Below are positions 18,805-38,209 of a DNA stretch of 64,000 nucleotides, piece by piece. The stretch covers positions 186,001 to 250,000 of the forward strand of contig JAJDTB010000032.1 of NCBI GenBank assembly GCA_022827345.1, in the 5' to 3' direction. The notes under the pieces were generated by a model, which worked only from the letters and a program-made list of their open reading frames with translations, ran no database searches and had not been told where the DNA came from. How positions within the stretch are numbered: the first letter of the stretch is position 1; each line of letters opens with the position of its first letter. The position numbers were made by a program, and so were the translations under genes. The stretch is from Gemmatimonadota bacterium. Lineage in GTDB: Bacteria > Gemmatimonadota > Gemmatimonadetes > Longimicrobiales > Gaopeijiaceae.

Positions 18805-20289
18805 TCAAATCAGCACGCCCGCGATCGACGCGGTCATGAAGGCCGCGATCGAACCCCCGACCATCGCCCGCAGACCCAGCCGCGCGAGATCCTTCCTCCT
18901 CTTCGGCGCGATCCCCCCGATCCCCCCGATCTGGATGGCGATCGAAGAGAAATTGGCGAACCCGGAGAGCGCATAGGTGGCGATCGTGGCGGAACGTGCG
19001 CTCAGCGTGCCCTGCCCCATCTCTTCGGCGAGCCCCAGGAAGGCCACGAACTCGTTGGCGACCGTCTTCAGCCCCATGAGCGACCCGACCGGGACCGCGT
19101 CCTGCCAGGGCACGCCCATCACCCACGCCACCGGCCCCAGCAGCCATCCCAGGATCCCTTCGAGCGAAAGGCCGTCGATCCCCACCAGCCCCCCGGCCCA
19201 CCCCATCAGCGCGTTCAGGAGCGCGATCATTGCGAGGAACGCAAGGAGCATCGCCCCAACGTTGAGGGCCAGCTGCAGCCCCTCGCTCGCTCCCCTCGCC
19301 GCGGCCTCGATCACGTTCACGTCGGGACGCTCCAGCTCCGTCCTGAGCTGCCCCGCGGTCTCCGATTCCTCCATCTCGGGCACCATGAGCTTGGCCACCA
19401 CCAGCGCGGCCGGCGCGGACATGACCGACGCGGCCATCAGGTGCCCGGCGATCTCCGGGAAGAACCCCATCAGCATCCCCGCGTAGGCGGCCATCACGCC
19501 GCCGGCCACGGTCGCGAAGCCCCCGGTCATCACGGCCATGAGCTCCGAGCGGGTCATGCCGTCGACGAAGGGCTTGATGAGGAGCGGCGCCTCGGTCTGC
19601 CCCACGAAGATGTTGCCCGCGGCAGACAGCGTCTCGGCTCCGCTCGTGCGCATGGTGCGCTGCATGACCCAGGCGATCCCCGCCACCACCTTCTGCATGA
19701 CGCCCAGGTGGTACAGCACGGTCATGATCGAGGCGAAGAAGATGATCGTGGGCAGCACGTTGAATGCGACGAAGGCGCCGGTGCGCGCCACCTGCTGTCC
19801 CTCGGCGACGAATCCGCTGTTGCCCGGCTCGCCGGTGCCCACCGGGACGTTGTTGTAGACCAGGTCGCCGAAGAGGAAGCGCGCGCCCTCCAGCGTGAAG
19901 CCGACCGCCGCGAGGATCACGTCGTTGGCGGCGGCGAAGACGCCGGCGCCGAAGGGCGTTCGCAGGATCAGCAGCGCGAAGATGAACTGCAGGGCGAGGC
20001 CCCAGAGCACGATGCGCCAGGGGATCACCTTGCGGTTGACGCTCAGTGCCCACGCGACCGCCGTCAGAAAGACGACGCCGAAGAGGCCTCGGAACCTCTC
20101 CGGTCCCGCGGCCCCGTCCGCTTGAACCGCGACCCCTTCGGAGACAGCCGCCGCGACGCCGTCCGCGGCCGAGGCGCTCAGCTGGCCCAGGCCCTCGAAC
20201 AGGGATGCGCCCAGGTGGCCCAGGCCCTCGGAAAGGGACGCGGCGATTGCCGGGAGCGCGATCGCTGCGGTTTCCAGGGGCAGGTACAT
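18805..20289 (-). CDS. nupC: Concentrative nucleoside transporter (NupC/CNT family)
   Basis: A 494-residue inner-membrane symporter. CNT motifs are clear: [36 protein letters not shown] and [23 protein letters not shown] proteins bring in nucleosides with protons or sodium. The N-terminus has an extension of about 70 residues containing short repeats ([18 protein letters not shown]) before the first helix. It is the first gene of the nupC-punA operon and diverges from dnaK. Confidence 0.94.
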
Positions 20290-20338
20290 GGGGCCTCGAA
20301 ATGGGTGGCGGGGAAGCGGCAGATAGAATACAGCCGGG

Positions 20339-20437
20339 CCTGCCGTAATGACAGGATCGCGGCACCCGACGCTCCGGGTTCGGCCAAAATGGCAGGGTCG
20401 GGGGCCGGAAGCGCAAAAAACCTGCCAAAATGGCAGG
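20339..20437. promoter_or_regulatory. Array of three 17-bp inverted repeats, 41 bp apart
   Basis: The copies are CCTGCCGTAATGACAGG (20339-20355), TCGGCCAAAATGGCAGG (20380-20396) and CCTGCCAAAATGGCAGG (20421-20437). The third is a perfect dyad (CCTGCCA-N3-TGGCAGG). The start-to-start spacing is exactly 41 bp both times, about four helical turns, so the sites lie on one DNA face. They sit between the divergent nupC and dnaK genes. The motif is neither CIRCE (HrcA) nor HAIR (HspR). Confidence 0.75.
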
Positions 20438-20467
20438 AATCACCCGGCAGCCCGGCGCCTTCGGGTC

Positions 20468-20483
20468 CGGCACGCCATTTGCT
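20468..20483 (+). promoter_or_regulatory. Near-consensus sigma-54 promoter of dnaK
   Basis: CGGCACG-CCAT-TTGCT matches the -24/-12 consensus TGGCACG-N4-TTGCW with one mismatch, and GG and GC are ten bases apart as required. Predicted start of transcription is near 20494, 60 bases before the dnaK ATG. An alternative -10 box, TATCTT, lies at 20498-20503 but has no good -35 hexamer. Confidence 0.55.
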
Positions 20484-20553
20484 TCAACGGGGCCAGTTAT
20501 CTTTGAACCATCAACCGCCGGCCGCGGCCGGCCCCGCAAAGGAACAGGCTACA

Positions 20554-22488
20554 ATGGGCAAGATCATCGGCATCGACCTGGGTACCACCAACTCGGTGGT
20601 CGCCGTCATGGAAGGCGGAGAGCCCACGGTCATCGCCAATTCGGAGGGCGGCCGCACCACCCCCTCGGTCGTCGCCTTCGCAAAGGACGGAGAGCGCCTG
20701 GTCGGGCAGGTCGCCCGGCGGCAGGCCATCACCAACCCCGAGAATACCGTCTTCTCGATCAAGCGGTTCATGGGAATGCGCTACGGCGAGGTCGAGGCCG
20801 AGCGCCGGCGCGTCCCCTACGGCGTCGCCCGCGACAGCAGCGACCGGGTCGTGGTCAACCTTCCCAACGGCGGCAAGTCGTTCACCCCGCCCGAGCTGTC
20901 CGCGGTCATCCTGCAGAAGATGCGGCAGACGGCCGAGGACTATCTCGGCACCAACGTGACCGAGGCGGTGATCACCGTTCCCGCGTACTTCAACGACGCG
21001 CAGCGGCAGGCCACCAAGGACGCCGGCAAGATCGCCGGGCTCGAGGTCAAGCGCATCATCAACGAGCCCACGGCGGCCGCGCTGGCCTACGGGCTGGACA
21101 AGAAGAAGGACGAGAAGATCGCCGTCTTCGACCTCGGGGGCGGCACCTACGACATCTCGATCCTGGAGATCGGGGACGGCGTCTTCGAGGTGAAGGCGAC
21201 CAACGGCGACACGCACCTCGGCGGGGACGACTTCGACCAGGTGCTGATCGACTGGCTCGTGGGCGAGTTCAAGAAGGACCAGGGGATCGATCTGTCGAAG
21301 GACTCGATGGCGCTGCAGCGGCTCAAGGAGGCCGCCGAGAAGGCCAAGATGGAGCTGTCGTCGACCGCATCGACCGACATCAACCTGCCCTTCATCACCG
21401 CGACCCAGGAAGGTCCCAAGCACCTCAACTACTCGCTCTCGCGGGCGAAGTTCGAACACCTGGTGGACGACCTGATCCAGCGCACCATCCCGCCGATGCG
21501 CAAGGCGCTGGAGGACGCCGGAATGAAGCCGGCCGACATCGATGAGGTGGTGCTGGTGGGCGGCTCGACCCGGATCCCCAGGATCCAGCAGGTGGTCGAG
21601 GAGTTCTTCGAGCAGGAGCCGCACCGGGGAGTGAACCCGGACGAGGTGGTCGCGGTCGGCGCCGCGATCCAGGGCGGCGTGCTGGCGGGCGACGTGAAGG
21701 ACGTTCTGCTCCTCGACGTGACGCCGCTGTCGCTGGGCATCGAGACGCTGGGCGGCGTGATGACCACGCTGATCGAGCGCAACACCACGATTCCGACGCG
21801 CAAGATGGAGGTGTTCTCGACCGCCGAGGATGCGCAGACCACGGTGGAGATCCACGTCCTGCAGGGCGAGCGCAAGATGGCGATGGACAACCGCACCATC
21901 GGCAAGTTCCAGCTGACGGGCATCCCGCCCGCGCCGAGGGGCATGCCGCAGGTCGAGGTCACCTTCGACATCGACGCCAACGGCATCCTGCACGTGACCG
22001 CCAAGGACCGCGCCACCGAGAAGGAGCAGAAGGTCCGCATCGAGGCGTCGAGCGGGCTGAGCGACGCCGAGATCGACCGCATGGTGGACGACGCCGAGGC
22101 GAACAAGGCGGAGGACGAGAAGCGCCGCGAGGCGGTCGAGGCGCGCAACTCGCTCGACACGCTGGTGTACCAGGTCGAAAAGGACACGGGCGAGTGGGGC
22201 GACAAGGTGTCCGCCGATACGAAGGAGCGGCTCGACGCGGCGCTGGAGCGCGGCAAGCAGGCGCTGAAGGGGGGCGAGTCCGGCGAGATGAACGAGGCGC
22301 GGGACGCGCTCATGCAGGCGTTCACGGCCGCGGGCCAGGAGATGTACCAGGCGCAGGCGGCCGAGGCCGCGGCGAGCGGTGACGGCGCCGGGGGCGAGGC
22401 CGACGGCGCCGGGGGCGAGGCCGACGCGGGGAATGCCGAGGACGACGTGGTGGAGGCCGACTACGAGATCGTCGACGAGAAGCGGTAG
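20554..22488 (+). CDS. dnaK: Hsp70 chaperone DnaK
   Basis: A 644-residue chaperone with the ATPase signature [18 protein letters not shown] at the N-terminus, [13 protein letters not shown] and [15 protein letters not shown]. It also has a complete substrate-binding domain ([17 protein letters not shown]) and a Gly/Ala-rich tail ending in acidic residues. The frame is open far upstream, but the family start and AAAGGA place the ATG at 20554. No grpE, dnaJ or hrcA is next to it, so it is a single-gene unit bounded by a strong hairpin. The upstream operator array and sigma-54 element suggest inducible control. Confidence 0.97.
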
Positions 22489-22528: not shown

Positions 22529-22578
22529 GCATCCAATTCTCGCCAACAGCGAACTTTCAACCGGTGAGAGATAGAACG

Positions 22579-24141
22579 ATGTACGATCCACTCAGAGCAA
22601 AGACCAAGGTTGCCCTTTCCGTGGCGGCCTCCTTCATTTTCGGACTCGGGATCGCGTCCCAGTTCGGCTTTACCGAGCGGCCCTACAGCCTGCCTCCGGT
22701 GCAGACCGAGGCCGTGGTCTCCCAGGCCGAGGTGCAGCCCGCGCTCGACCTGAGCCAGGCGTTCGTGAACGTTGCCGAGGCGGTGACGCCGGCGGTGGTG
22801 CAGATCGAGACCACGCGTCAGCTGGCACGTGCCAGCGACCGCACGGGGGGGCTGGAATGGTTCTTCCGCGGCGACCCGCGGGACGATGTGCCGGACATCA
22901 GAGAGGGTAGCGGCAGCGGCTTCATCATCGCCGAAGACGGGTACGTCCTGACCAACAATCACGTCGTCGAGGACGCCCAGCGGATCACGGTCACGCTCCT
23001 CGACGGACGGGAGTTCGGGGCCGACGTGGTCGGGACGGATCCCACGACCGACATCGCGGTGATCAAGATCGATGGCACGGGCCTGCCGGTCGCGTCGCTT
23101 GGATCGTCGGCGGAGGTGAGGGTGGGTGAATGGGTGCTGGCGGTGGGCAACCCCGGCTTCGGCGGCCGCCGAGGCACCGAGCTCGACTACACGGTGACCG
23201 CGGGGATCGTCTCGGCCGTGGGGCGATCACTGAGGCTGATCCAGGAGTCTCTTCAGTCGGATCCCGATTTCGCGGGCAACCCGGCTCTGGCCATCGAGGA
23301 CTTCATCCAGACCGACGCCGTCATCAACTCCGGCAACTCCGGCGGCCCCATGGTCAACCTTCGAGGCCAGGTGATCGGAATCAACGCGGCGATCGTGAGC
23401 CGGACGGGGGTCTACCAGGGGTACGGATTCGCCATTCCAATCGACCTCGCCCACCGGGTCATGGAAGACCTGATCCAGTACGGCCGGGTCAGGCGCGCCT
23501 TCCTGGGGGTCTCGATGCAGGGAGTGACTTCCGAAGACGCCGAAGCCTTTGGCCTTCCCGATGTCAGCGGCGCGCTGGTGCAGCACGTAAGCGAGGACAC
23601 GCCGGCCGAGAGGGCAGGCCTGCGGATGAGCGACGTGATCGTGTCGGTGGATGGCGAGAAGGTCGTCTCGGGCAACGACCTCCAGCACAAGATCGCGCTC
23701 AAGTCGCCCGGCGACCGGGTCCGTATCGGAATCTATCGCGATGGAGCGCCGCGCGAGATAACCGTCCGCCTGGAGGAGTTGCCCAATACGGGTGTGATGG
23801 CTGCGGCGCCGGCTCGCCAGCCGCGCGCTGCCGACAAGATCGGAGTCATCGAACTCCGCGAGCTGACGCCCGAACAGGCCGAGCAGGCACAACTTGAGAG
23901 CCCCGAGGGCGTGATCGTGCTGGCCCTTCAGCCCAACGGACCCGCAGCGAGGCGCGGCATCGAGGAGGGTTGCGTGATTACCGAAGCGGACCGACGCGCG
24001 ATCCAGGACGTCGACGACCTGCGCGAAGCACTTGCGGATGTCGAGACCGGCGCGGTGGTTTCGCTCGTTGCGGCCTGTCCCAGTCCCGATCGCAACCGCC
24101 ACTTCGCACCCGCGGTGTACAACATCCGGGTTCCCAGGTAG
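22579..24141 (+). CDS. htrA: HtrA/DegQ-family periplasmic serine protease
   Basis: A 520-residue protein with an N-terminal signal anchor (residues 8-29), a trypsin-like domain with catalytic H128 (TNNHVV), D158 (TTDIAVIK) and S254 (NSGNSGGP), then two PDZ domains. The first PDZ is around residues 310-400. The second, from about 425, is shorter and ends with an unusual Cys-containing tail (EEGCVITEADRR, VAACPSPDRN). HtrA proteases degrade misfolded envelope proteins. The ATG at 22579 follows GAGAGA; a GTG five codons earlier is less likely. Confidence 0.93.
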   Translation: MYDPLRAKTKVALSVAASFIFGLGIASQFGFTERPYSLPPVQTEAVVSQAEVQPALDLSQAFVNVAEAVTPAVVQIETTRQLARASDRTGGLEWFFRGDPRDDVPDIREGSGSGFIIAEDGYVLTNNHVVEDAQRITVTLLDGREFGADVVGTDPTTDIAVIKIDGTGLPVASLGSSAEVRVGEWVLAVGNPGFGGRRGTELDYTVTAGIVSAVGRSLRLIQESLQSDPDFAGNPALAIEDFIQTDAVINSGNSGGPMVNLRGQVIGINAAIVSRTGVYQGYGFAIPIDLAHRVMEDLIQYGRVRRAFLGVSMQGVTSEDAEAFGLPDVSGALVQHVSEDTPAERAGLRMSDVIVSVDGEKVVSGNDLQHKIALKSPGDRVRIGIYRDGAPREITVRLEELPNTGVMAAAPARQPRAADKIGVIELRELTPEQAEQAQLESPEGVIVLALQPNGPAARRGIEEGCVITEADRRAIQDVDDLREALADVETGAVVSLVAACPSPDRNRHFAPAVYNIRVPR

Positions 24142-24299: not shown

Positions 24300-24382
24300 G
24301 CGAAAGTGGCGGAACTGGTAGACGCGCAAGATTTAGGATCTTGTGGCCCCTGGCCGTGGGGGTTCGAGTCCCCCCTTTCGCA
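24300..24382 (+). tRNA. tRNA-Leu (anticodon UAG)
   Basis: The acceptor stem GCGAAAG (24300-24306) pairs with CTTTCGC (24375-24381), followed by discriminator A. The anticodon stem CAAGA/TCTTG encloses TTTAGGA, giving anticodon TAG. A long variable arm (TGGCCCCTGGCCG) and the T arm GGGGGTTCGAGTCCCCC are typical of leucine tRNA. CCA is not encoded. The tig start codon follows only 18 bases later. Confidence 0.95.
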
Positions 24383-24400
24383 TGCCGGGGTCCGGCGGTC

Positions 24401-25687
24401 ATGAGCGCCGCTCCCAGGGCGCCGGATCCGTCCCGGCTCGAGGTGACGGTCACCGAGGGCGAACGGTGCCACCGATCGGTGGAGGTGGTGGTTCCGGCCG
24501 ATTACGTCGCGGCCGAACAGGTCGCCGTAATCCGCAAATACGCGGGCAAGGTCCGGCTGAAGGGCTTCAGGAAGGGCAAGGCGCCGACCGGGGTGATCCT
24601 TCAGCACTACGGCAGGGAGATCCAGGAGGAGTCCGTCGACCGGGCGATCCAGAAGGCGTGCAGGCAGGCCATCGACTCGCGCGGGCTGCATCCGGTCTCC
24701 GAGGTGCAGGTCGCCGACCTCCGCTTCGGCGACGAGGACGGCGCTCTCTCGTTCAAGGCCTCGTTCGATGTGCGTCCGGAGGTCACCCTCGGCCGCCTGG
24801 GAGGGTTCAAGCTCCAGCGCGCTCCGGTGACGGTGCCCGACGGTGCCGCGGACGAGATCCTGGAGCGGTTGCGCAAGGAGCGGGCTGCCTGGCGTACGGT
24901 GGAAAACGGCCGTCCCGAATCGGGGGACTCCGTGACCGTGCTGCTGACCCAGCTGGACAGCGCCCCGGACCCGGATTCCGGCGATGGCGCGAGGCAGTAT
25001 GACCTGGTGCTCGGCGAAGGCCAGGCGCTGCCCGACATCGAGGAGGCGATCCGGTCGCTCGCCGCGGGAGAAGCGGGCGAGTTCGACGTCGGCTTTCCGG
25101 ACGACCACCCGGACGGGGACCGCGCCGGCACGCGGCACCGGCTGAAGATCGAGCTGATTTCGCGGCGCGTCCCCGAATTGCCCGCGCTCGACGACGCCTT
25201 CGCCCGCTCGGTCGGGGACTTCGACGACCTCGATGTCCTGCGCGCGCGAGTCAGCGAGGATCTCGACAGGGACGCCCGCTCACGCAGCGAAGCGGACTTC
25301 CGCGAGCGGCTTCTGCGCATGGTTGTGGAGGCCAATCCCTTCGATGTCCCCGATTCGATGGTGAGTGTCTACACCGACGCGCTGCTCGCCGAAGCCGGCG
25401 ACCTGGAGGAATCGAAGCTCGAGGAGCTGAGGGAGGAGCTGCGGCCGTCGTCGGAGTTCGCCGTCCGGCGCGAACTGATCGTGGAGCGGATCGTGGAAGA
25501 ACACGATCTGCGGGCGTCACCGGAAGCGGTGGGCGAGAAGGTTAGGGAGCTCGCCGACCGGATGGGCCAGTCGCCCTCGGCCGTCCGCTCCCGGCTGCGC
25601 AAGTCCGGTGGGCTGGACAACATCGAGCGGCAGCTCACGGACGCGAAGCTCTTCGAGTTCCTGATGGCCAGGTCGGACCTTTCATAA
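24401..25687 (+). CDS. tig: Trigger factor
   Basis: A 428-residue ribosome-associated chaperone and peptidyl-prolyl isomerase. The N-terminal ribosome-binding domain ends with the signature GFRKGKAP (around residues 50-57). A PPIase-like middle domain follows ([20 protein letters not shown]), then the helical C-terminal domain. The ATG at 24401 lies just after the tRNA-Leu 3' end; an earlier in-frame ATG lies inside the tRNA and cannot be used. The gene heads the order tig-clpP-clpX-lon, which is common in bacteria. Confidence 0.95.
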
Positions 25688-25716
25688 CCCGAATCAGAGA
25701 TTACTGGAGATACCGG

Positions 25717-26343
25717 ATGGCGATCTTTCCGCCGTACGTGATAGAACGGACCAGCCGAGGGGAGCGCAGCTACGACATCTTCAGCCGGCTGCTGATGGAT
25801 CGGATCGTCTTCCTCGGGAGTTCGATCGACGACAACGTCGCCAACATCATCGTGGCGCAGCTGCTCTTTCTCGACGCGGACGACCCGGAGCGGGAGGTGT
25901 ACCTCTACATCAACTCGCCGGGCGGCAGCGTGTACGCCGGCCTGGCAATCTACGACACCATCAATCACCTGCGGGCCCCGGTGTCGACCTACTGCGTCGG
26001 CATGGCGGCATCGATGGGGGCGCTGCTGCTCGCGTCGGGCGAGAAGGGCCGGCGAAATGCGCTGCCCAACTCGCGAATCATGCTCCATCAGCCGTCTTCG
26101 GGGTATCAGGGTACGGCGGCGGACATCGAGATCGCCGCCAAGGAGATCCTCGGGACGCGCGAGCGGCTCAACCGGATTCTGGCCGAAAACACCGGGCAGA
26201 AGCTCCGCAAGATCAACGCCGACGTGGACCGGGACCGCTGGATGAGTGCGGACGAGGCGGTCGCCTACGGCCTCGTCGATCAGGTGCTTCGGAAGGAAGA
26301 CGGGCCCGGGCGCGGCGCCCCCTCGACCAAGGAGGCCAAATGA
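25717..26343 (+). CDS. clpP: ATP-dependent Clp protease proteolytic subunit
   Basis: A 208-residue serine peptidase that forms the ClpXP barrel. The catalytic triad is S99 (GMAASMGA), H124 (IMLHQP) and probably D173. The N-terminus ([20 protein letters not shown]) is the usual processed region. It starts 29 bases after tig and overlaps clpX by four bases. Confidence 0.97.
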
Positions 26344-27605
26344 CGAGTGACAGACACCTCCGCTGCAGCTTCTGCGGGAAGTCCAAGGAGACGGTCAAGA
26401 AGTTCATCTCCGGGCCTTCCGTGTATATCTGCAACGAGTGCATCTCGCTGTGCAACGAGATTCTCGCCGAAGAGGAAGAGCGGGAGAAGCAGGAGACATC
26501 CGTCACGACGCTGAAGCCATCGGAGATCAAGGCGGTTCTGGACGAATACGTGATCGGGCAGGAGCAGGCCAAGCGGTCGCTCTCCGTGGCGGTGTACAAT
26601 CACTACAAGCGCGTCCACCAGCGGGACAAGCTGAGCGGCGTCGAGATCGACAAGTCGAACGTGCTGCTGGTGGGCCCCACCGGGGTGGGCAAGACGCTTC
26701 TGGCGCAGACGCTGGCGCGGGTGCTGCAGGTGCCCTTCACCATCGCGGACGCGACGACGCTCACCGAGGCGGGCTACGTCGGGGAGGACGTCGAGAACAT
26801 CCTGGTTCGGCTCCTGCAGGCGAGCGACTTCAACATCGCCGAATGCGAGCGGGGCATCGTCTACATCGACGAGCTGGACAAGATCGCACGCAAGTCGGAG
26901 AACCCGTCGATCACCAGGGACGTGTCGGGGGAAGGCGTGCAGCAGGCGCTCCTGAAGATCCTGGAGGGGACGGTCGCGAGCGTACCGCCGCAGGGCGGAC
27001 GCAAGCATCCGCAGCAGGAGTACATCCAGATCGACACGACGAGCATTCTGTTCATTTGCGGGGGTGCCTTCGAGGGCCTGGACAGGATCGTCGAGCACCG
27101 GCTCGGCCGGCGGACGATCGGATTCGGAGACACGGGCGAGGGGGCGGAGAACGGGGAGACGGTGGATGTGCCCGCGTCGGACGATCTCGAGCCGATGGAG
27201 TGGCTCGAGCCAGCGGACCTTCAGCGCTTCGGGCTCATTCCGGAGCTTGTGGGCAGGCTGCCGGTGATGGTGTCCCTGGAGGAACTCGACGAAGAGTCGC
27301 TTGTGCGGATCCTGCAGGAGCCCAAGAACGCCCTGGTCAAGCAGTACCAGAAGATGTTCGAGCTCGAGGGCATCGGGCTGACCTTCGATCCGGGAGCGCT
27401 GCGGAACATCGCGCACCAGACGCTGGAACGCGGGACCGGCGCCCGCGGGCTTAGGGCGGTTCTGGAGAGGATCATGCGGGATGCGATGTTCGAGCTTCCG
27501 TCGAGGACCGATGTCAGGGAGGTGGTCGTCACCCCCGAATCCGCCAGCGGCAGGGTTCCGCCCCTCCTGGTCCTGAGGCCGGAGGCGCAGCGGAAGGAAG
27601 CCTGA
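26340..27605 (+). CDS. clpX: Clp protease ATPase subunit ClpX
   Basis: A 421-residue AAA+ unfoldase. It has the N-terminal C4 zinc-binding domain (CSFCGKS and CNECISLC), Walker A GPTGVGKT and Walker [12 protein letters not shown]. Further motifs are the pore-region [10 protein letters not shown] and the sensor segment [10 protein letters not shown]. Overlap with clpP (ATGA) indicates balanced expression of the two partners. Confidence 0.97.
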
Positions 27606-27618
27606 CCGGGCGCTGACG

Positions 27619-30039
27619 ATGGCCACCCTGCACCGGGTCGACGGATCGTTCGAAATCCCCGGCGAACTCCCGGTCATCGCCCTGCGCGATCTCGTCTACT
27701 TCCCCTACATGGTCCTGCCCCTGCTGATCGGCAGGAAGCCCTCGGTTGCGGCCCTGGAAGAGGCCGAGGCCGACCGCGGACTGGCCCTGCTGGTCGCGCA
27801 GAGGGACCCCGCCGTGCAAAACCCGGCGCAGGAGGAGCTGTACCGTTCGGGAACGGTCATTCGCGTCGTGCAGGTGTCGCACCTGGCCGACAAGACGGCG
27901 AGGGTGGTGATGGAGGGACTCGGCCGGGCGAGAATCGTTAAGTACCTGCCCTCGGGAGCCGGGTTCCGCGCCTCGGTGGAGCTGCTTACGGATACCGAGC
28001 ACGACGCGGATACGAGCGCCGAGCCCGATACCGCGCTCGAGGCGCGCGTGGCCGAAGTGATCAAGCTGTTCGGCCGATACGTCGGCCTTTCGGAGAAGAT
28101 TCCCAACGAGGTGGTCGGGCCGCTCACTGAAGTCGGAGACCGGATCCGCCTTTCGCACCTGATCGCCGGGCACCTTCTGATCGGTACCGGCGAGAGGCAG
28201 GAGCTGCTGGAGGCCACGGAGATCAGGGCCCGGTTCGAAATCCTGCAGGCGATCCTCGTGCGGGAAGTCGAGGTGCTCCAGATCCAGCAGAAGCTCGACG
28301 AGCAGATCAGCTTCCAGATGGAATCGGAGTTCGGCACTCCCCCGTCCCGGGGACGGGAACCTCCCGGGGGGCGGCATCCCGAGGCGGCGGCCACCGATCC
28401 GGAGTGGGCGGAGCTGGAGGTCACCATCGCGGATACGCCGCTGCCCGATGAGGTGCGCAGCCGCGTGGACAAGGAGTTCGATCGGCTCCGCAAGCTGAAT
28501 CCGGTCGCGCCCGAGGCGTCGGTGATCCGCACCTACCTGGACTGGATCCTGGCGCTTCCCTGGGAGCGCGAGACTCCGGACAGCCTGGATGTGGACCGCG
28601 CCGCCGCCGTGCTGGAGGAAGAACACCATGGCCTGGAGGAGGTCAAGGAGCGGATCCTGGATCATATCGCCGTGCTGACGCTGGTCGGGCGGCTGCAGGG
28701 GCCGATCCTGTGCCTGGTGGGGCCGCCCGGGGTCGGCAAGACATCGCTGGGGCGGAGCATCGCGCGCTGCCTGGAGCGGGAATTCGTGCGGGTCAGCCTG
28801 GGCGGGGTGCGGGACGAGGCCGAAATCAGGGGCCATCGCAGGACATACGTCGGCGCACTGCCCGGGCGGATCGTGCAGGGGATTCGCAAGAGCGGGTCGC
28901 GCAATCCGGTCTTCCTTCTCGACGAGGTCGACAAGGTGGCGCGCGATTTCCACGGGGACCCCGGGGCGGCGCTGCTGGAAGTTCTCGATCCCGAACAGAA
29001 CCGGACTTTCACCGACCACTACCTGGAGCTCGAGTTCGACCTGTCGAACGTCCTCTTCATCGCCACCGCCAACACGCTTGGGGAGATACCGGGGCCGCTG
29101 CGCGACCGGATGGAGGTGATCCGCCTGCCCGGCTATCTGGATACCGAAAAACGGGTGATCGCCCACGAATTCCTCTGGCCGAAGCAGGTCACCCGGCATG
29201 GTCTGGATCCGTTCGAGCCCGGGATCTCCGACGGGGCCGTCCAGACGATCGTGGCGGAGTACACCAGGGAGGCGGGTGTGCGCGAGCTGGAACGGCGGCT
29301 CTCGCGGGTGGCGCGCAAGCTCGCGCGGCGCGTGACCGGCCCCGAGATGAATCCGCTCGGGGAGGTGCGCTCCGCCGACCTGCGCGATTTGCTGGGGCCG
29401 CCGGTCCACCTTCCTCCGTCGCGGGAAGCCGGCACCGATCGTTCGGGGATCGCGTGCGGGCTGGCCTGGACGGCTGCCGGCGGCGAGGTGCTGGAGGTCG
29501 AGGTCGCGGCGGTGCCGGGAACGGGCAAGATCCAGCTGACCGGCACCCTCGGCGACGTGATGAAGGAGTCCGCGTTCGCGGCCGTGACCTATGCGAGATC
29601 GAGGGCGCGCTGGCTGGGGCTGAAGGAGCTGTTCCACCGCGAGATGGATATCCACATCCATATCCCCGAAGGAGCCACCCCGAAGGACGGGCCCTCGGCG
29701 GGGATCACGATCGCCGTGGCCCTGATTTCGGCGTTGACGGAAACACCCACCCGCGCCGACCTGGCCATGACGGGCGAGATCACGCTGAGGGGACGGGTGC
29801 TGGTCGTGGGCGGGATCAAGGAGAAGGCGGTCGCGGCGCTCCGCGGAGGGATCAAGAGGGTGCTCCTGCCAGCGATGAACGCGATGGACATCGAGCAGCT
29901 TCCGGAGGAGGTGCGGGCCGGGGTTGAAATGGTGCCCGTCGAGACGATGGATCAGGTGTTGCGGGAGGCGCTGGTCACGCGGCGATCCGTGGCGGCGCGC
30001 GGGGAGGACCTGTCGCCCGGTTCCCTGCAGATCACCTGA
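27619..30039 (+). CDS. lon: ATP-dependent protease Lon
   Basis: An 806-residue single-chain protease: N-terminal LON substrate domain (LPVIALRDLVYFPYMVLPL), AAA+ domain with GPPGVGKTS and VFLLDEVDKVA, and a Ser-Lys protease domain. The catalytic serine is S693 in PKDGPSAG and the lysine lies in VVGGIKEKAVAA. The linker around residues 235-260 has a Pro/Gly/Arg-rich segment (PPSRGREPPGGRHPE). It is 13 bases after clpX. Confidence 0.97.
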   Translation: MATLHRVDGSFEIPGELPVIALRDLVYFPYMVLPLLIGRKPSVAALEEAEADRGLALLVAQRDPAVQNPAQEELYRSGTVIRVVQVSHLADKTARVVMEGLGRARIVKYLPSGAGFRASVELLTDTEHDADTSAEPDTALEARVAEVIKLFGRYVGLSEKIPNEVVGPLTEVGDRIRLSHLIAGHLLIGTGERQELLEATEIRARFEILQAILVREVEVLQIQQKLDEQISFQMESEFGTPPSRGREPPGGRHPEAAATDPEWAELEVTIADTPLPDEVRSRVDKEFDRLRKLNPVAPEASVIRTYLDWILALPWERETPDSLDVDRAAAVLEEEHHGLEEVKERILDHIAVLTLVGRLQGPILCLVGPPGVGKTSLGRSIARCLEREFVRVSLGGVRDEAEIRGHRRTYVGALPGRIVQGIRKSGSRNPVFLLDEVDKVARDFHGDPGAALLEVLDPEQNRTFTDHYLELEFDLSNVLFIATANTLGEIPGPLRDRMEVIRLPGYLDTEKRVIAHEFLWPKQVTRHGLDPFEPGISDGAVQTIVAEYTREAGVRELERRLSRVARKLARRVTGPEMNPLGEVRSADLRDLLGPPVHLPPSREAGTDRSGIACGLAWTAAGGEVLEVEVAAVPGTGKIQLTGTLGDVMKESAFAAVTYARSRARWLGLKELFHREMDIHIHIPEGATPKDGPSAGITIAVALISALTETPTRADLAMTGEITLRGRVLVVGGIKEKAVAALRGGIKRVLLPAMNAMDIEQLPEEVRAGVEMVPVETMDQVLREALVTRRSVAARGEDLSPGSLQIT

Positions 30040-31347: not shown

Positions 31348-32985
31348 CTAATCCTCCTCGAGGCCGAATTTCTTGACCTTGCGGTAGAGGGTCCTTTCGC
31401 CGATTCCGAGGGCTTCTGCGGCCTGGCGGCGGTTCCAGTCGACCGAATCCAGAACCGCTCGGATGACCTCGCGCTCCATGTCGTCGAGAGTCATGCCGGG
31501 CCGGTAGGCGACGGCTGGGGAGGGGGCGCCGGCCGGGTCGGCGGGTTCGGTATCTTCGATCGGGGTGGCCGGGGAGGTGGTGGCGTCAGGGGATTCGGCG
31601 TCGGTGGAGTCCGCAGGCTGATCGGACGCATCCCTGCGGTCATAGACGATTTCGGCGAGGGGGAGCGGGTCGTCCTCCAGGTCCGGAATGGGGAGCAGCA
31701 CCTGACCGCGCCGCTCCTCGGCCTGGAACTCCTCGAAGTCACGGCGGAGGTCCTCGAGGTCCACCTTCATCTCCATCATGGTGCGGAAGATGAACTCGAG
31801 TTGGGGGCGGAACGAGGCGCGATCGTCGCCAGCACGCTGTGCGCCGTGCGTCGACGGGACAAGAGCGAGTCCTCCCTCGCCGGAGCGCACATTCTGAGGG
31901 ATGTCCTCCGCGCGGATTTCGCGGCCCGGAGCGAGCACCACCATGCTCTCGACGAGATTGCGGAGTTCACGCACGTTGCCCGGCCAGCGGTACCGCACGA
32001 GAATCTCCATCGCGTCGGGCGAGATTCCCCGGAATGGGCCGCGGTCGTGCCGCGTGCTTGCGTCTCGCACGAAGTCGTCCACCAGGAGCGGGATGTCGTC
32101 GCGGCGCTGGCGCAGCGGCGGCAGGGAAATGGTGAGGACGTTCAGGCGGTAATAGAGGTCCTTGCGGAAGTTGCCGGAAACGACGAGGTGTTCGAGGCGC
32201 TGATTGGTCGCGGCCAGGATCCTCACGTCGACCTTGATCAGCTTCTGCCCCCCCACCCGGTGAAATTCCTGCTGTTCGAGGATGCGAAGCAGTTTCGTCT
32301 GCGTCTGAAGCGGCATCTCCCCGATCTCGTCGAGGAAGATGGTGCCGCCGCTGGCGAGTTCGAAGAGGCCCTTGCGGGTGTCGATGGCACCCGTGAAGGC
32401 CCCTTTCTCGTGGCCGAAGAGCTCGCTTTCGAGCAGTGTTTCGGAGAGCGCCGCCACGTTGACCGGGATGAAGGATTTATGCCGCCTGCGCGAGAGCGCG
32501 TGCAGGCCGCGCGCGACGAGTTCCTTGCCGGTACCGGATTCGCCAGTGACGAGAACCGTGGCGTCGACCGGCGCGATCTGGACGATCCGTTCCAGGACCT
32601 CGACCATGGCGTCGGTCTCGCCGACGATGCCGGTAGCCCTGCGGAGCCGCGCTCGCTCGATCGCCCTCGTTCCCACGAGCACGATTTCTTCGGGGTCCGC
32701 CGGGCGCCGGAAGGTGGAGGTCGCGGCCGGGGTTGTCGACGCCTGTCGGTCCGGGGCCACGACTGCCAGGACTGGTAGGCCCTGCCGGGAGGCCTGGCGG
32801 GTGTGGCGGTTTGCTGCGTCCGTGTCGGCGCCGCCCGTGAGGACCAGGAGGACCGGGTCGTCGATGCTCGCCACATCCTCGGCGGCGGTGAAGAGTTCGA
32901 CCCGGTAGCCGCCGTGGCGGAATCCGTCCCGCAGCTTGCCGGCCAGGGGAAGGTCGTGCGTGGTTACGAGAACGGTTTCAGCCAT
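31348..32985 (-). CDS. Sigma-54-dependent transcriptional activator with degenerate receiver
   Basis: A 545-residue enhancer-binding protein. Residues 1-110 look like a receiver domain that lacks the phosphoryl-accepting Asp (VLLVLTGG at the expected strand) and the acidic pair. The AAA+ domain has Walker A GESGTGKE (148-155), the sigma-54 contact loop GAFTGA (195-200) and Walker B TIFLDE (215-220). A linker of about 130 residues with an acidic Pro/Ser/Thr-rich part precedes a Fis-type helix-turn-helix (NRRQAAEALGIGERTLYRKV). It should bind upstream sites and open sigma-54 promoters. Its targets are unknown; the dnaK promoter in this window is one candidate. Confidence 0.93.
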   Translation of the reverse strand: MAETVLVTTHDLPLAGKLRDGFRHGGYRVELFTAAEDVASIDDPVLLVLTGGADTDAANRHTRQASRQGLPVLAVVAPDRQASTTPAATSTFRRPADPEEIVLVGTRAIERARLRRATGIVGETDAMVEVLERIVQIAPVDATVLVTGESGTGKELVARGLHALSRRRHKSFIPVNVAALSETLLESELFGHEKGAFTGAIDTRKGLFELASGGTIFLDEIGEMPLQTQTKLLRILEQQEFHRVGGQKLIKVDVRILAATNQRLEHLVVSGNFRKDLYYRLNVLTISLPPLRQRRDDIPLLVDDFVRDASTRHDRGPFRGISPDAMEILVRYRWPGNVRELRNLVESMVVLAPGREIRAEDIPQNVRSGEGGLALVPSTHGAQRAGDDRASFRPQLEFIFRTMMEMKVDLEDLRRDFEEFQAEERRGQVLLPIPDLEDDPLPLAEIVYDRRDASDQPADSTDAESPDATTSPATPIEDTEPADPAGAPSPAVAYRPGMTLDDMEREVIRAVLDSVDWNRRQAAEALGIGERTLYRKVKKFGLEED

Positions 32986-35050: not shown

Positions 35051-36595
35051 CTAGAGGATGTACCGGCTGAGGTCGTCGTCGGATACGATCTTGTCCAGAC
35101 GCTCCTTCACGAAGTCCGCCGTGACGACGACGGTCTCGCCACGTCCCTCGTCCGGAAGGTCGAAGAGGAGGTCCTCGAGGAGTGTGGTCAGCACCGTTCG
35201 CAGCCGGCGGGCGCCGATATTCTCCATGCGGTCGTTCAGGTCCGCCGCGATACGCGCGATCTCGCTGATTCCGCCGTCCGTGAACTTGACGGACGCGCCC
35301 TCGGCCTCGACCAGAGCACGGTACTGTCGCACCAGTGCATTTCGGGGCTCGCGCAGAATCCTCTCGAACTCCGGCGCGTTGAGGCTGTTCAGCTCGACCC
35401 GGATCGGGAAGCGCCCCTGCAACTCGGGAATCAGGTCGGAGGGCTTGGCGACGTGGAACGCGCCGGCGGCGATGAAGAGCATGTGGTCCGTGCGGACAAA
35501 GCCGTACTTGGTCTGGACGTTGCAGCCCTCTACGATCGGCAGGAGGTCGCGCTGCACCCCCTCGCGGCTCACATCCGGTCCCGCTCCTCCCCTGCCCCCG
35601 GCTACCTTGTCGAGCTCGTCGAGAAAGACGATCCCGATCTCCTCGGCGCGATCGAGCGCTTCGTTCACGACCTCGTCCATGTCGACGAGGCGGTCGAGTT
35701 CCTCCTGCAACAGGATGCGCCGAGCCTCCGACACACTGACGGTTCGGCGTTTCTGACGCTTGGGCAGGAGATCCTGCAGCATCTCGGTGAAGTTGAGGTC
35801 CATTCCCTCCATCCCGCCCATCGGAAGCATCATCCCGCTCACCGGCGTGCCCTGTTGAACGCTCAATTCCACGTCGCGTTCTTCCAGGTGGCCGTCCCGA
35901 AGGAGCTTGCGAAGCTTCTCGCGGGTGCGCTGCCTGCGTTCCGCAAGGGCCGGATCTTCGTCCGGCGCGCTGCCGGGGGGCTGGTCCTGCACGCCACCGG
36001 GTCCGGCAACGAAGAGTCGCGGCTGCCGGTCGGCGTGCTCCGGGTCCTCCGGGCCGTCGGGAGCCGTCTGCGCGGGGGGAGCCCCGGGGGATCGCCGCGC
36101 TGAATCGGGGAGGAGCAGGTCGAGCAACCGCTCTTCCACTCGTCGGGCGGCTTCCTCCTCCACCTCGTCTTCGCGCGCCGTCCTCACCATTGCGACGGCG
36201 GTGTCGACCAGGTCGCGGACCATCGATTCGACATCGCGGCCGACATAGCCCACCTCCGTGAATTTGGAAGCTTCGACCTTGATGAAGGGGGACCCCGCCA
36301 GGCGGGCAAGGCGGCGCGCGATCTCCGTCTTCCCGACCCCGGTGGGACCGATCATGATGAGGTTGTTGGGCAGAATCTCGTCCCGCAGTTCGTCTTCGAC
36401 CTGCTGGCGGCGCCACCGGTTCCGCAGCGCGATCGCGACCGCCTTCTTCGCCGCCGACTGGCCCACGATGTACTTGTCCAGTTCGGCGACGATCTCGCGC
36501 GGCGTGAACTGATCGAGCCAGTGCGGGGGGTCCTCGCGGATGTCGGGGCCGGTGGACTCGGGAGAGGTGGGGGCGGTGGCCGAGGTGGTTGTCAT
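35051..36595 (-). CDS. hslU: HslUV protease ATPase subunit
   Basis: A 514-residue AAA+ unfoldase with Walker [24 protein letters not shown], Walker [13 protein letters not shown] and a C-terminal tail ending DDLSRYIL, which inserts into HslV to activate it. The I-domain (about residues 150-260) is long and rich in Pro, Ala and Asp. The start overlaps the hslV stop by four bases. Confidence 0.96.
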
Positions 36596-37191
36596 TCAGG
36601 ATCGAGTTCCAGGACCGTGATGTCCCGGTTGGTGTAGATGCAGATGTCCGCCGCGATCTCCAGACTCCGCCGAGCGATCCCCGGCGCGTCCAGATCGGAG
36701 CAGTCGAACAGGGCACGGGCCGCGGCCAGAGCATAGGCGCCGCCGGAGCCGATCGCGAGGATCGGGTGGTCGGGCTCGATAACGTTGCCGTCGCCGCCAA
36801 CGAGGAAGAGGTGATGGCGGTCAGCCACCGCCAGGAGGGCCTCGAGGCGGCGAAGGTAGCGATCCGTGCGCCACTCCTTGGCAAGCTCGACGCAGGCTCG
36901 AGCCAGATTCGAGGGCCACCGCTCGAGCTTCCCCTCGAGGAGTGTAAAGAGGGTGAACGCGTCCGCTACCGCGCCGGCGAAACCGGCAAGGATGTTGCCG
37001 TCCTTCAGGAGCCGTACCTTGCGCGCGGCACCCTTCACCACGGCGTCGCCCATGGTCACCTGCCCGTCACCCGCCATGGCCACGCGGCCGTCGCGGGCTA
37101 CCGCGATGACGGTGGTCGCGTGGACGGGCGCGCCGGGTTGGGTCGGGGCAACGGGGAACATTCCGTCGGGAAGAAAAATCCTGGAAGGCAT
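36592..37191 (-). CDS. hslV: HslUV protease catalytic subunit, with N-terminal extension
   Basis: A 199-residue N-terminal-threonine peptidase. The mature sequence begins [23 protein letters not shown], with T26 as the expected nucleophile. In most bacteria only Met or a few residues precede this Thr. Here the first ATG upstream gives a 25-residue leader ([12 protein letters not shown] onward), and no start codon sits right before T26. The leader must be cut, probably by self-processing. An ATG at residue 11 would give a 15-residue leader. Neither has a good ribosome site. Confidence 0.92.
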
Positions 37192-37303
37192 TGCTGGAGG
37201 AGCCGGCCGGATGGGCCAGGCAATGGACTGGGCAGTCATTGAAGGTAGATGCGCGCCAAGGCACCCGGTAGGGGTGGTCGGAACTCGTCGCGCCGCAGGT
37301 GGG

Positions 37304-38209
37304 TCACGCCCGCGGGTGGGCGCCCCGGTACACCCGTCGCAGTCGCTCCCTGGACGTGTGCGCGTAGATCTGCGTGGTACCGAGCGACGCATGGCCGAGG
37401 AGTTCCTTCACGGCCATGAGGTCGGCGCCAGCGTCGAGGAGGTGGGTTGCGAAGGTGTGGCGCAGCGAATGGACGGACAGATTCGCCGCCGATGCGAAGC
37501 GGCTGATCGCGCCCTGGACGGTCCGCTGGATGTACCTGTTCGAGAGGCGGTTTCCGTGCTTGCCGACGAACAGCGCGCGGCAGTCTCCATCGGCCGCTTC
37601 ATCGCGCCGCGGCATGTAGCTGCGGACGGCCCTGGCCGCCGACTCGGTGATGGGCACAATCCGCTCTTTTCTGCCCTTGCCCAGAACCCGGAGCTGTTTC
37701 CGGTCGAGGTCGAGGGAGCCTACGTCCAGCGAGCCGAGTTCGGCGAGGCGGAGGCCGCTGCCGTAGAAGAGTTCGAGGGCTGCGAGCAGACGCGTGGTCG
37801 TAAGATCGTTGAGCCGGGCCGCTCGGCTTTCGGTCCAGCGAAACAGCTCTTCCATCTCCGGGAGCCGCATGTGCCCGGGCAGGGTCCGGTCGAGCTTCGG
37901 GCCGCGAACCAGGCGGGCGGGATTCGTTGCGATCTCGCCTTCCTGGTGGAGGTGACGGAAGAAAGCGCGAGTCGCAGCCAGCTTGCGCGAGATCGTTCGC
38001 GGTGCAAGCCCACGACGCCCCGATTCACCCAGAAACGCCCGGATCGTCGTACGATCGATCTCGGCCCAGCGGTAGTCTTCGCGGCCGAGGTGCACCTGGA
38101 TGAAATCCTCGAGATCGCACAGGTCGCGGCGGTAGCCGGCTATCGTCCGCGGGGAGAGATTCCGCACTACCTCGAGATGGTCGAGGAACGACGCCACCTG
38201 GGATGTCAT
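37304..38209 (-). CDS. xerC: Tyrosine recombinase XerC/XerD
   Basis: A 301-residue site-specific recombinase for chromosome dimer resolution. Catalytic residues are visible: Arg in [12 protein letters not shown], Lys in [10 protein letters not shown], HxxR in [12 protein letters not shown], His in [13 protein letters not shown] and Tyr in IYAH. The SAM-like N-terminal domain is intact. The ATG at 38209 overlaps the trmFO stop. XerC and XerD cannot be told apart by eye; the topA-trmFO-xerC-hslVU order matches the gene called codV/xerC in Bacillus. Confidence 0.92.

Follow-up and report, generated by a model that had tools for sequence, protein, structure and literature searches.

A predicted sigma-54 promoter with phased palindromes as putative activator sites upstream of dnaK in Gemmatimonadota

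The dnaK gene of this Gemmatimonadota genome is likely driven by sigma-54 from a -24/-12 element at 20467..20483 (+), with three upstream palindromes as the predicted sites of EBP2, a sigma-54 activator (EBP) encoded in the same window (the whole 64-kb stretch of DNA that was analysed), and with dnaK as one member of a proteostasis regulon. This reading draws on what can be observed directly, i.e., the anatomy of the dnaK upstream region, its conservation, the helical phasing of the sites, the content of the regulon, and the conservation, linkage and clade of EBP2. The genome encodes rpoN, with PF04552, PF04963 and PF00309 on a single protein.

The regulated gene codes for a 644-aa Hsp70 (dnaK, 20554..22488, +; PF00012, E 7.6e-268) and its divergent neighbour for a nupC-type nucleoside transporter (18805..20289, -; PF07662/PF01773), and PF00012 and PF07662 bear out the names that both had received in the first-pass annotation. 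Upstream of dnaK, a repeat finder and our own script recovered the three palindromes already described there, 15-mers related to CTGCCANNNTGGCAG (CTGCCA-N3-TGGCAG) with start-to-start distances of 41 and 41 bp. The distal copy, CTGCCGTAATGACAG (20340..20354, +), has 2 mismatches to it, the middle copy, CGGCCAAAATGGCAG (20381..20395, +), has 1, and the proximal copy, CTGCCAAAATGGCAG (20422..20436, +), is perfect, with 0 mismatches. The sigma-54 element CCGGCACGCCATTTGCT reads CCGGCACG-CCAT-TTGCT and agrees with the consensus TGGCAC-N5-TTGCW at 12 of 13 positions, i.e., with the one mismatch that had been claimed for it; it is the sole site with this score on both strands of the window. From the position of its GG-N10-GC the predicted +1 is 20494, so that the palindrome centres are at -147, -106 and -65, as previously given. 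The gap between the third palindrome and CGGCACG had been put at 31 bp and is actually 30 bp (the 17-bp palindrome ends at 20437 and CGGCACG starts at 20468).

We compared this arrangement with 5000 dinucleotide shuffles of 20290-20553. One palindrome with up to 2 mismatches appeared in 79 of them, two or three appeared in none, and a sigma-54 score of at least 12 was reached in 3. Across the whole window palindrome matches are not above chance (7 observed vs. 4.7 expected, with up to 3 mismatches); the signal is therefore in the cluster and its conservation, and the count has not been used as evidence. The motif had been said to fit none of the usual heat-shock boxes, and the box comparisons agree: at this dnaK the HAIR sequence (CTTGAGT-N7-ACTCAAG) has 6 mismatches of 14 and the sigma-32 box (CTTGAA-N11-16-CCCATNT) 4 of 12, while CIRCE was not found in any of the dnaK upstream regions (6-10 mismatches, 9 at best in this genome). 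A sigma-70 scan upstream of dnaK found no promoter. The sequence TATCTT, annotated as a weak alternative -10, is indeed present, and a GTTAYCTT-like block is shared by 11 of the 15 genomes of the genus but is not conserved outside it (taking one sequence for each of 32 genera). Located downstream of the sigma-54 element, this genus-level block could be a second promoter, a point that counts against our main reading. An Rfam search of the window returned tRNA only. Read on the minus strand, 20437-20421 with the T6 behind it could also form a hairpin terminator; we rejected this as the main reading because in relatives the copies keep phase with the dnaK promoter and because the neighbouring nupC is divergent.

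The dnaK regions of relatives and of 30 genomes spread over Gemmatimonadota were compared. Absence of the repeats and of the GG-N10-GC element from close relatives had been named beforehand as an outcome that would speak against sigma-54; both are retained upstream of dnaK, in the sampled families too. In 15 same-genus regions CGGCACG-N4-TTGC (one CGGCAAG) is located 86-145 bp from the ATG, within flanks that differ, and palindromes are found upstream of it in 14 of them, the exception (L038) ending at a contig edge. In other families most elements have GGYAY or GGCCC ahead of TTGC, and a palindrome with 0-3 mismatches is usually present. By automatic pick, the GG-N10-GC (TTGC) element was recovered at dnaK in 32 of 34 Gemmatimonadota genera, usually with a palindrome; regions L133 and L135 have none nearby. 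GG and TTGC are invariant in the 32 genera (one sequence each), for GG and GC partly by construction, since the set was picked by GG, GC and a good score, which is not the case for the T-T and the remaining matches. A strict pattern of palindrome plus element gave 8 matches in 150 Gemmatimonadota genomes, vs. 0 for the reversed control (a looser pattern with any GG-N10-GC was dropped, its background being too high). Judged from sequence, dnaK is probably under sigma-54 control in Gemmatimonadota, and we consider this strongly supported. The proposal that the lineage drives Hsp70 in this way is upheld by the conservation, with the amendment that the layout is common to Bacteroidota and Planctomycetota too.

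The palindrome core is present at few places in the genome. Besides dnaK, arrays are found upstream of clpB (C19), lon (C61) and hsp20 (C68), all identified by Pfam; the expectation of palindromes near other heat-shock genes is thus borne out for these three and not for groES, which has CIRCE instead. The hsp20 gene has a GG-N10-GC element, CCGGCACGGCTCCTGCT, and palindromes at 22, 65 and 84 bp, in the helical phase of dnaK (see below). The sigma-54 element of lon is weaker (10/13). Two features of these other targets count against the main reading: the lon palindromes, at 56, 87 and 118, are ca. 3 bp off the dnaK phase, and for clpB, with its five palindromes, no convincing GG-N10-GC element was found. 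HrcA is encoded, and a perfect CIRCE (TTAGCACTC-N9-GAGTGCTAA) precedes groES, recognised by its first residues. With groESL on HrcA/CIRCE, only part of the heat-shock set would be on sigma-54, and we infer that in this lineage the set is split between HrcA and sigma-54.

Two side observations belong here. An 83-aa ORF on C47 (L057:3830-4282), which has a single likely membrane segment and matches no Pfam family, is preceded by a perfect 13/13 element, TTGGCACGATTATTGCT, and by in-phase palindromes at 20, 83 and 127 bp; it is possibly a further, so far unrecognised member of the regulon. In addition, two kinds of mobile-element ends were found at palindromes (L060:1-705; L059, end, reverse strand; L039; L065:1-332; L066:1-332; L037). 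The end of an integrase element (PF00589) abuts the palindromes upstream of clpB and hsp20 in this genome (93% identical over 705 bp) and is found again, 87% identical, upstream of the dnaK of a relative. The second, unrelated end is found on C9, on C10 and in the dnaK region of a relative, and there the identity stops at the palindrome. Mobile elements may target, or carry, the putative activator sites.

We scanned bacteria and archaea, one genome per species, for the pattern CTGCCANNNTGGCAG-N7-37-GGYAYNNNNNTTGC; the matches listed are a sample. Among them, 60 of 80 loci belong to Bacteroidota (42), Planctomycetota (10, one of them assigned from its EBP) and Gemmatimonadota (8), and most targets are dnaK, clpB, htpG, groEL and grpE genes. 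Pfam searches of 78 downstream proteins from these listed matches gave Clp_N (17), HSP70 (15), Hsp90-type ATPase (7), Cpn60 (4), GrpE (2) and SecA (2), to which inspection added a Lon, a GroES and an Hsp20. No chaperone was seen downstream on inspection of the 20 listed loci from other phyla, which for this reason serve as an internal control. In Bacteroidota the palindrome and sigma-54 element are also found before secA and MoxR-type AAA genes (L158, L186, L199, L206).

The targets bear on the nature of the signal. Sigma-54 and EBP2 might drive dnaK in response to something other than heat, such as envelope stress, starvation or growth phase, and the SecA targets, together with a Bacteroidota EBP gene that adjoins lptE and secG, would be in keeping with this. 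We nevertheless regard it as unlikely, as the regulon has the classic heat-shock content. Along the same lines, in Rhodopirellula baltica (Planctomycetota) dnaK, clpB, hsp20 and groEL go up on heat with rpoH and rpoN unchanged (PMC2754498), data that fit the regulon.

The candidate activator, EBP2 (31348..32985, -; 545 aa; PF00158 3.5e-70, HTH_8 5.1e-14), is the one in the window among four full sigma-54 activators of the genome. Its gene is located in a proteostasis cluster, in which dnaK is followed by an HtrA/DegP-type protease (22564..24141, +), trigger factor, clpP, clpX and a second lon (24341..30039, +), then EBP2 and, on its far side, an hslU/hslV-type pair (35051..37392, -; AAA_2 and Proteasome families). 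The protein consists of a degenerate receiver, an AAA+ domain with GAFTGA, a conserved linker, a variable acidic stretch and a Fis-type HTH. In the receiver, modelled as alternating strands and helices with pLDDT near 90, the phospho-acceptor Asp that would be expected behind the third strand is replaced by Thr (LLVLTGG). Best Foldseek matches were NtrX and NtrC1, with the AAA+ region of the model partly of low confidence, and EBP2 passes none of the NCBIfam EBP cut-offs (351.5 vs. 558.6 bits for the NtrC equivalog TIGR01818). The linker, residues about 393-420, reads PELEFVFRTL-LRVDLEDLRREF, has the Bacteroidota counterpart ERELLYKVLFDM and bears no Pfam name; it is a candidate site of chaperone or protease feedback. 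Of 30 relatives, 28 have an EBP2 orthologue, well above the paralogue level and often at a distance of about 7-12 kb from dnaK; across the phylum an orthologue was found in 98 of 121 genomes (E<=1e-110). Against the main reading, two same-genus genomes, possibly incomplete assemblies, gave no match, and no palindrome was found upstream of EBP2 itself.

The recognition helix of EBP2, ERTLYRK, is common to its homologues in Bacteroidota and Planctomycetota. The Bacteroidota EBP has no N-domain and keeps the linker along with the helix, and in one Bacteroidales genome with the sites the single EBP found (E<=1e-50) is of the EBP2 type. In five Planctomycetota loci the EBP gene immediately precedes dnaK, and palindrome and element are located in the interval; the helix is ERTLYRK (QRTLYRK in one of the five), and in one of the five a histidine kinase gene adjoins the EBP gene. 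Profile search had suggested that these Planctomycetota EBPs were plain NtrC proteins, which is overturned by their adjacency to dnaK and by the tree, where the EBPs of the three phyla join to the exclusion of other EBPs with support of 94/87. This support is good, not maximal, and the tree has two Bacteroidota rows only, which weighs against the main reading. It is decidedly improbable that the sigma-54 sites are bound by another EBP, of NtrC type and with a phosphorylated receiver. The genome does encode three further EBPs, and the palindrome geometry resembles that of NtrC sites (TGCACC-N5-GGTGCA), but their helices (PRSNLYKK, KKGTLQYK and DHSSLIRI) differ from that of EBP2, which recurs in the Planctomycetota EBPs next to dnaK and in the sole EBP found in the Bacteroidales genome.

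Distances from palindrome start to element start fall at 20-23, 31-33, 42-45, 52-54, 62-65, 74, 83-86, 94-97, 106, 116 and 127-128 bp. Taking palindromes with up to 1 mismatch, and each distance one time for every genus, we obtained a Rayleigh R of 0.84 at 10.5 bp (n=28), a value inflated by shared ancestry (one family always has 21), vs. 0.11 at 9 and 0.13 at 12 bp; with distinct distances only it is 0.82 (n=19, p~3e-6). This phasing is characteristic of proteins that act from a single helix face, and across genera it agrees with the earlier placement of the sites on one face of the DNA. Among the matches listed, the palindrome-promoter gaps of Planctomycetota and Gemmatimonadota are in the same phase (about 8-9, 18-19 and 29). 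Those of Bacteroidota, again among the matches listed, are 12-13, 22-24 and 32-35, ca. 4 bp off in phase with an identical palindrome, and this counts against the main reading.

If the palindromes were operators of a repressor, with a housekeeping sigma transcribing dnaK, their symmetry would be accounted for and the genus-level GTTAYCTT block could be the -10. We hold this to be very improbable: the sites end 30 bp or more before the promoter and stay in phase with it at distances of up to 128 bp, no sigma-70 promoter was found, and GG/TTGC is invariant across genera whereas the -10-like block is not. That they are mobile repeats upstream of dnaK by chance, as the arrays, the several copies at contig ends and the two unrelated mobile-element ends abutting copies might suggest, is hardly credible given a promoter-relative position in helical steps phylum-wide and the pattern before proteostasis genes in three phyla.

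The mechanism that we infer, with EBP2 binding to the palindromes, sigma-54 dependence, heat as the signal and feedback on the activator, would be as follows. Sigma-54 RNA polymerase would transcribe dnaK from the -24/-12 element, and EBP2 dimers would bind the three palindromes on one DNA face, at whole-turn distances from the promoter, the several sites raising occupancy and aiding oligomerisation. EBP2 would assemble its AAA+ ring (GAFTGA loop), which would contact sigma-54, spend ATP and open the promoter, following a rise in active EBP2 during protein-folding stress. The same sites before hsp20, lon and probably clpB would make up the proteostasis regulon, with groESL staying on HrcA/CIRCE. 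EBP2 activity would probably be set by chaperone/protease feedback and not by phosphorylation, possibly via the linker between AAA+ and HTH: a chaperone or protease would exert negative control, relieved when it is busy. Negative control is favoured because EBP2 has no phospho-acceptor and its Bacteroidota counterpart no N-domain; sigma-32/DnaK and PspF/PspA are analogues. A Planctomycetota EBP with receiver and kinase would use phosphorylation.

To our knowledge, heat-shock control is poorly known in most non-proteobacterial Gram-negatives. Sigma-54 with upstream sites is already known; what is new, and supported here, is its use at dnaK, with the site and a likely activator, in three phyla. 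Like NtrC/NifA-type promoters, the system has GG-N10-GC, rpoN, palindromic upstream sites on one face and a GAFTGA AAA+ activator with Fis-type HTH; unlike them, its targets are Hsp70 and other proteostasis genes, and its candidate activator is devoid of a phospho-acceptor and below every NCBIfam EBP cut-off. HrcA/CIRCE, present here at groES, is similarly a palindrome near a chaperone gene under heat-shock control, but dnaK has no CIRCE and the logic proposed is activation, not repression. The HsfA-HsfB system of Myxococcus xanthus, a two-component activator of the heat-shock protease gene lonD (as cited in PMC9548883), differs in its target and in that EBP2 has no usable phospho-acceptor. 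The hrcA-grpE-dnaK operon of Chlamydia trachomatis has tandem sigma-66/sigma-54 promoters, and thus likewise a sigma-54 promoter upstream of dnaK, but it works with HrcA and AtoC, and rpoN falls on heat shock (PMC8762339). Sigma-54 promoters have been predicted in Bacteroidota and Planctomycetota at GroEL, GroES, IbpA, GrpE, DnaJ, DnaK, Clp and Lon genes (PMC12316311). Gemmatimonadota are not mentioned in that paper; in the excerpt of it the chaperone genes come without a named upstream site or activator, and grpE and groES of B. thetaiotaomicron are given as sigma-54 dependent, citing a Blattabacterium genome paper. Our search of the open literature, with subscription papers outside it, found no description of the palindrome, the activator or the Gemmatimonadota case.

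We think it rather likely that this is a third heat-shock architecture beside sigma-32 and HrcA/HspR, in which one AAA+ activator clade and one palindrome control Hsp70, ClpB, Hsp90, Hsp20, Lon and GroE via sigma-54 in three phyla, with the sensor end swapped (a degenerate receiver, none, or a full receiver with kinase). Since any transcription from a sigma-54 promoter requires an activator that uses ATP, a sigma-54 Hsp70 promoter would be a tight, enhancer-like switch, resembling the logic of eukaryotic HSF. The EBP2 clade would offer the missing activator for the published predictions of sigma-54 chaperone promoters. With a DNA site and a likely protein named, and with gut and soil bacteria amenable to genetics in the phyla concerned, the idea can be tested directly. 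As far as genome sequences can indicate, Gemmatimonadota, and apparently two more phyla, probably switch on their folding machinery by sigma-54 and not by the textbook controls.
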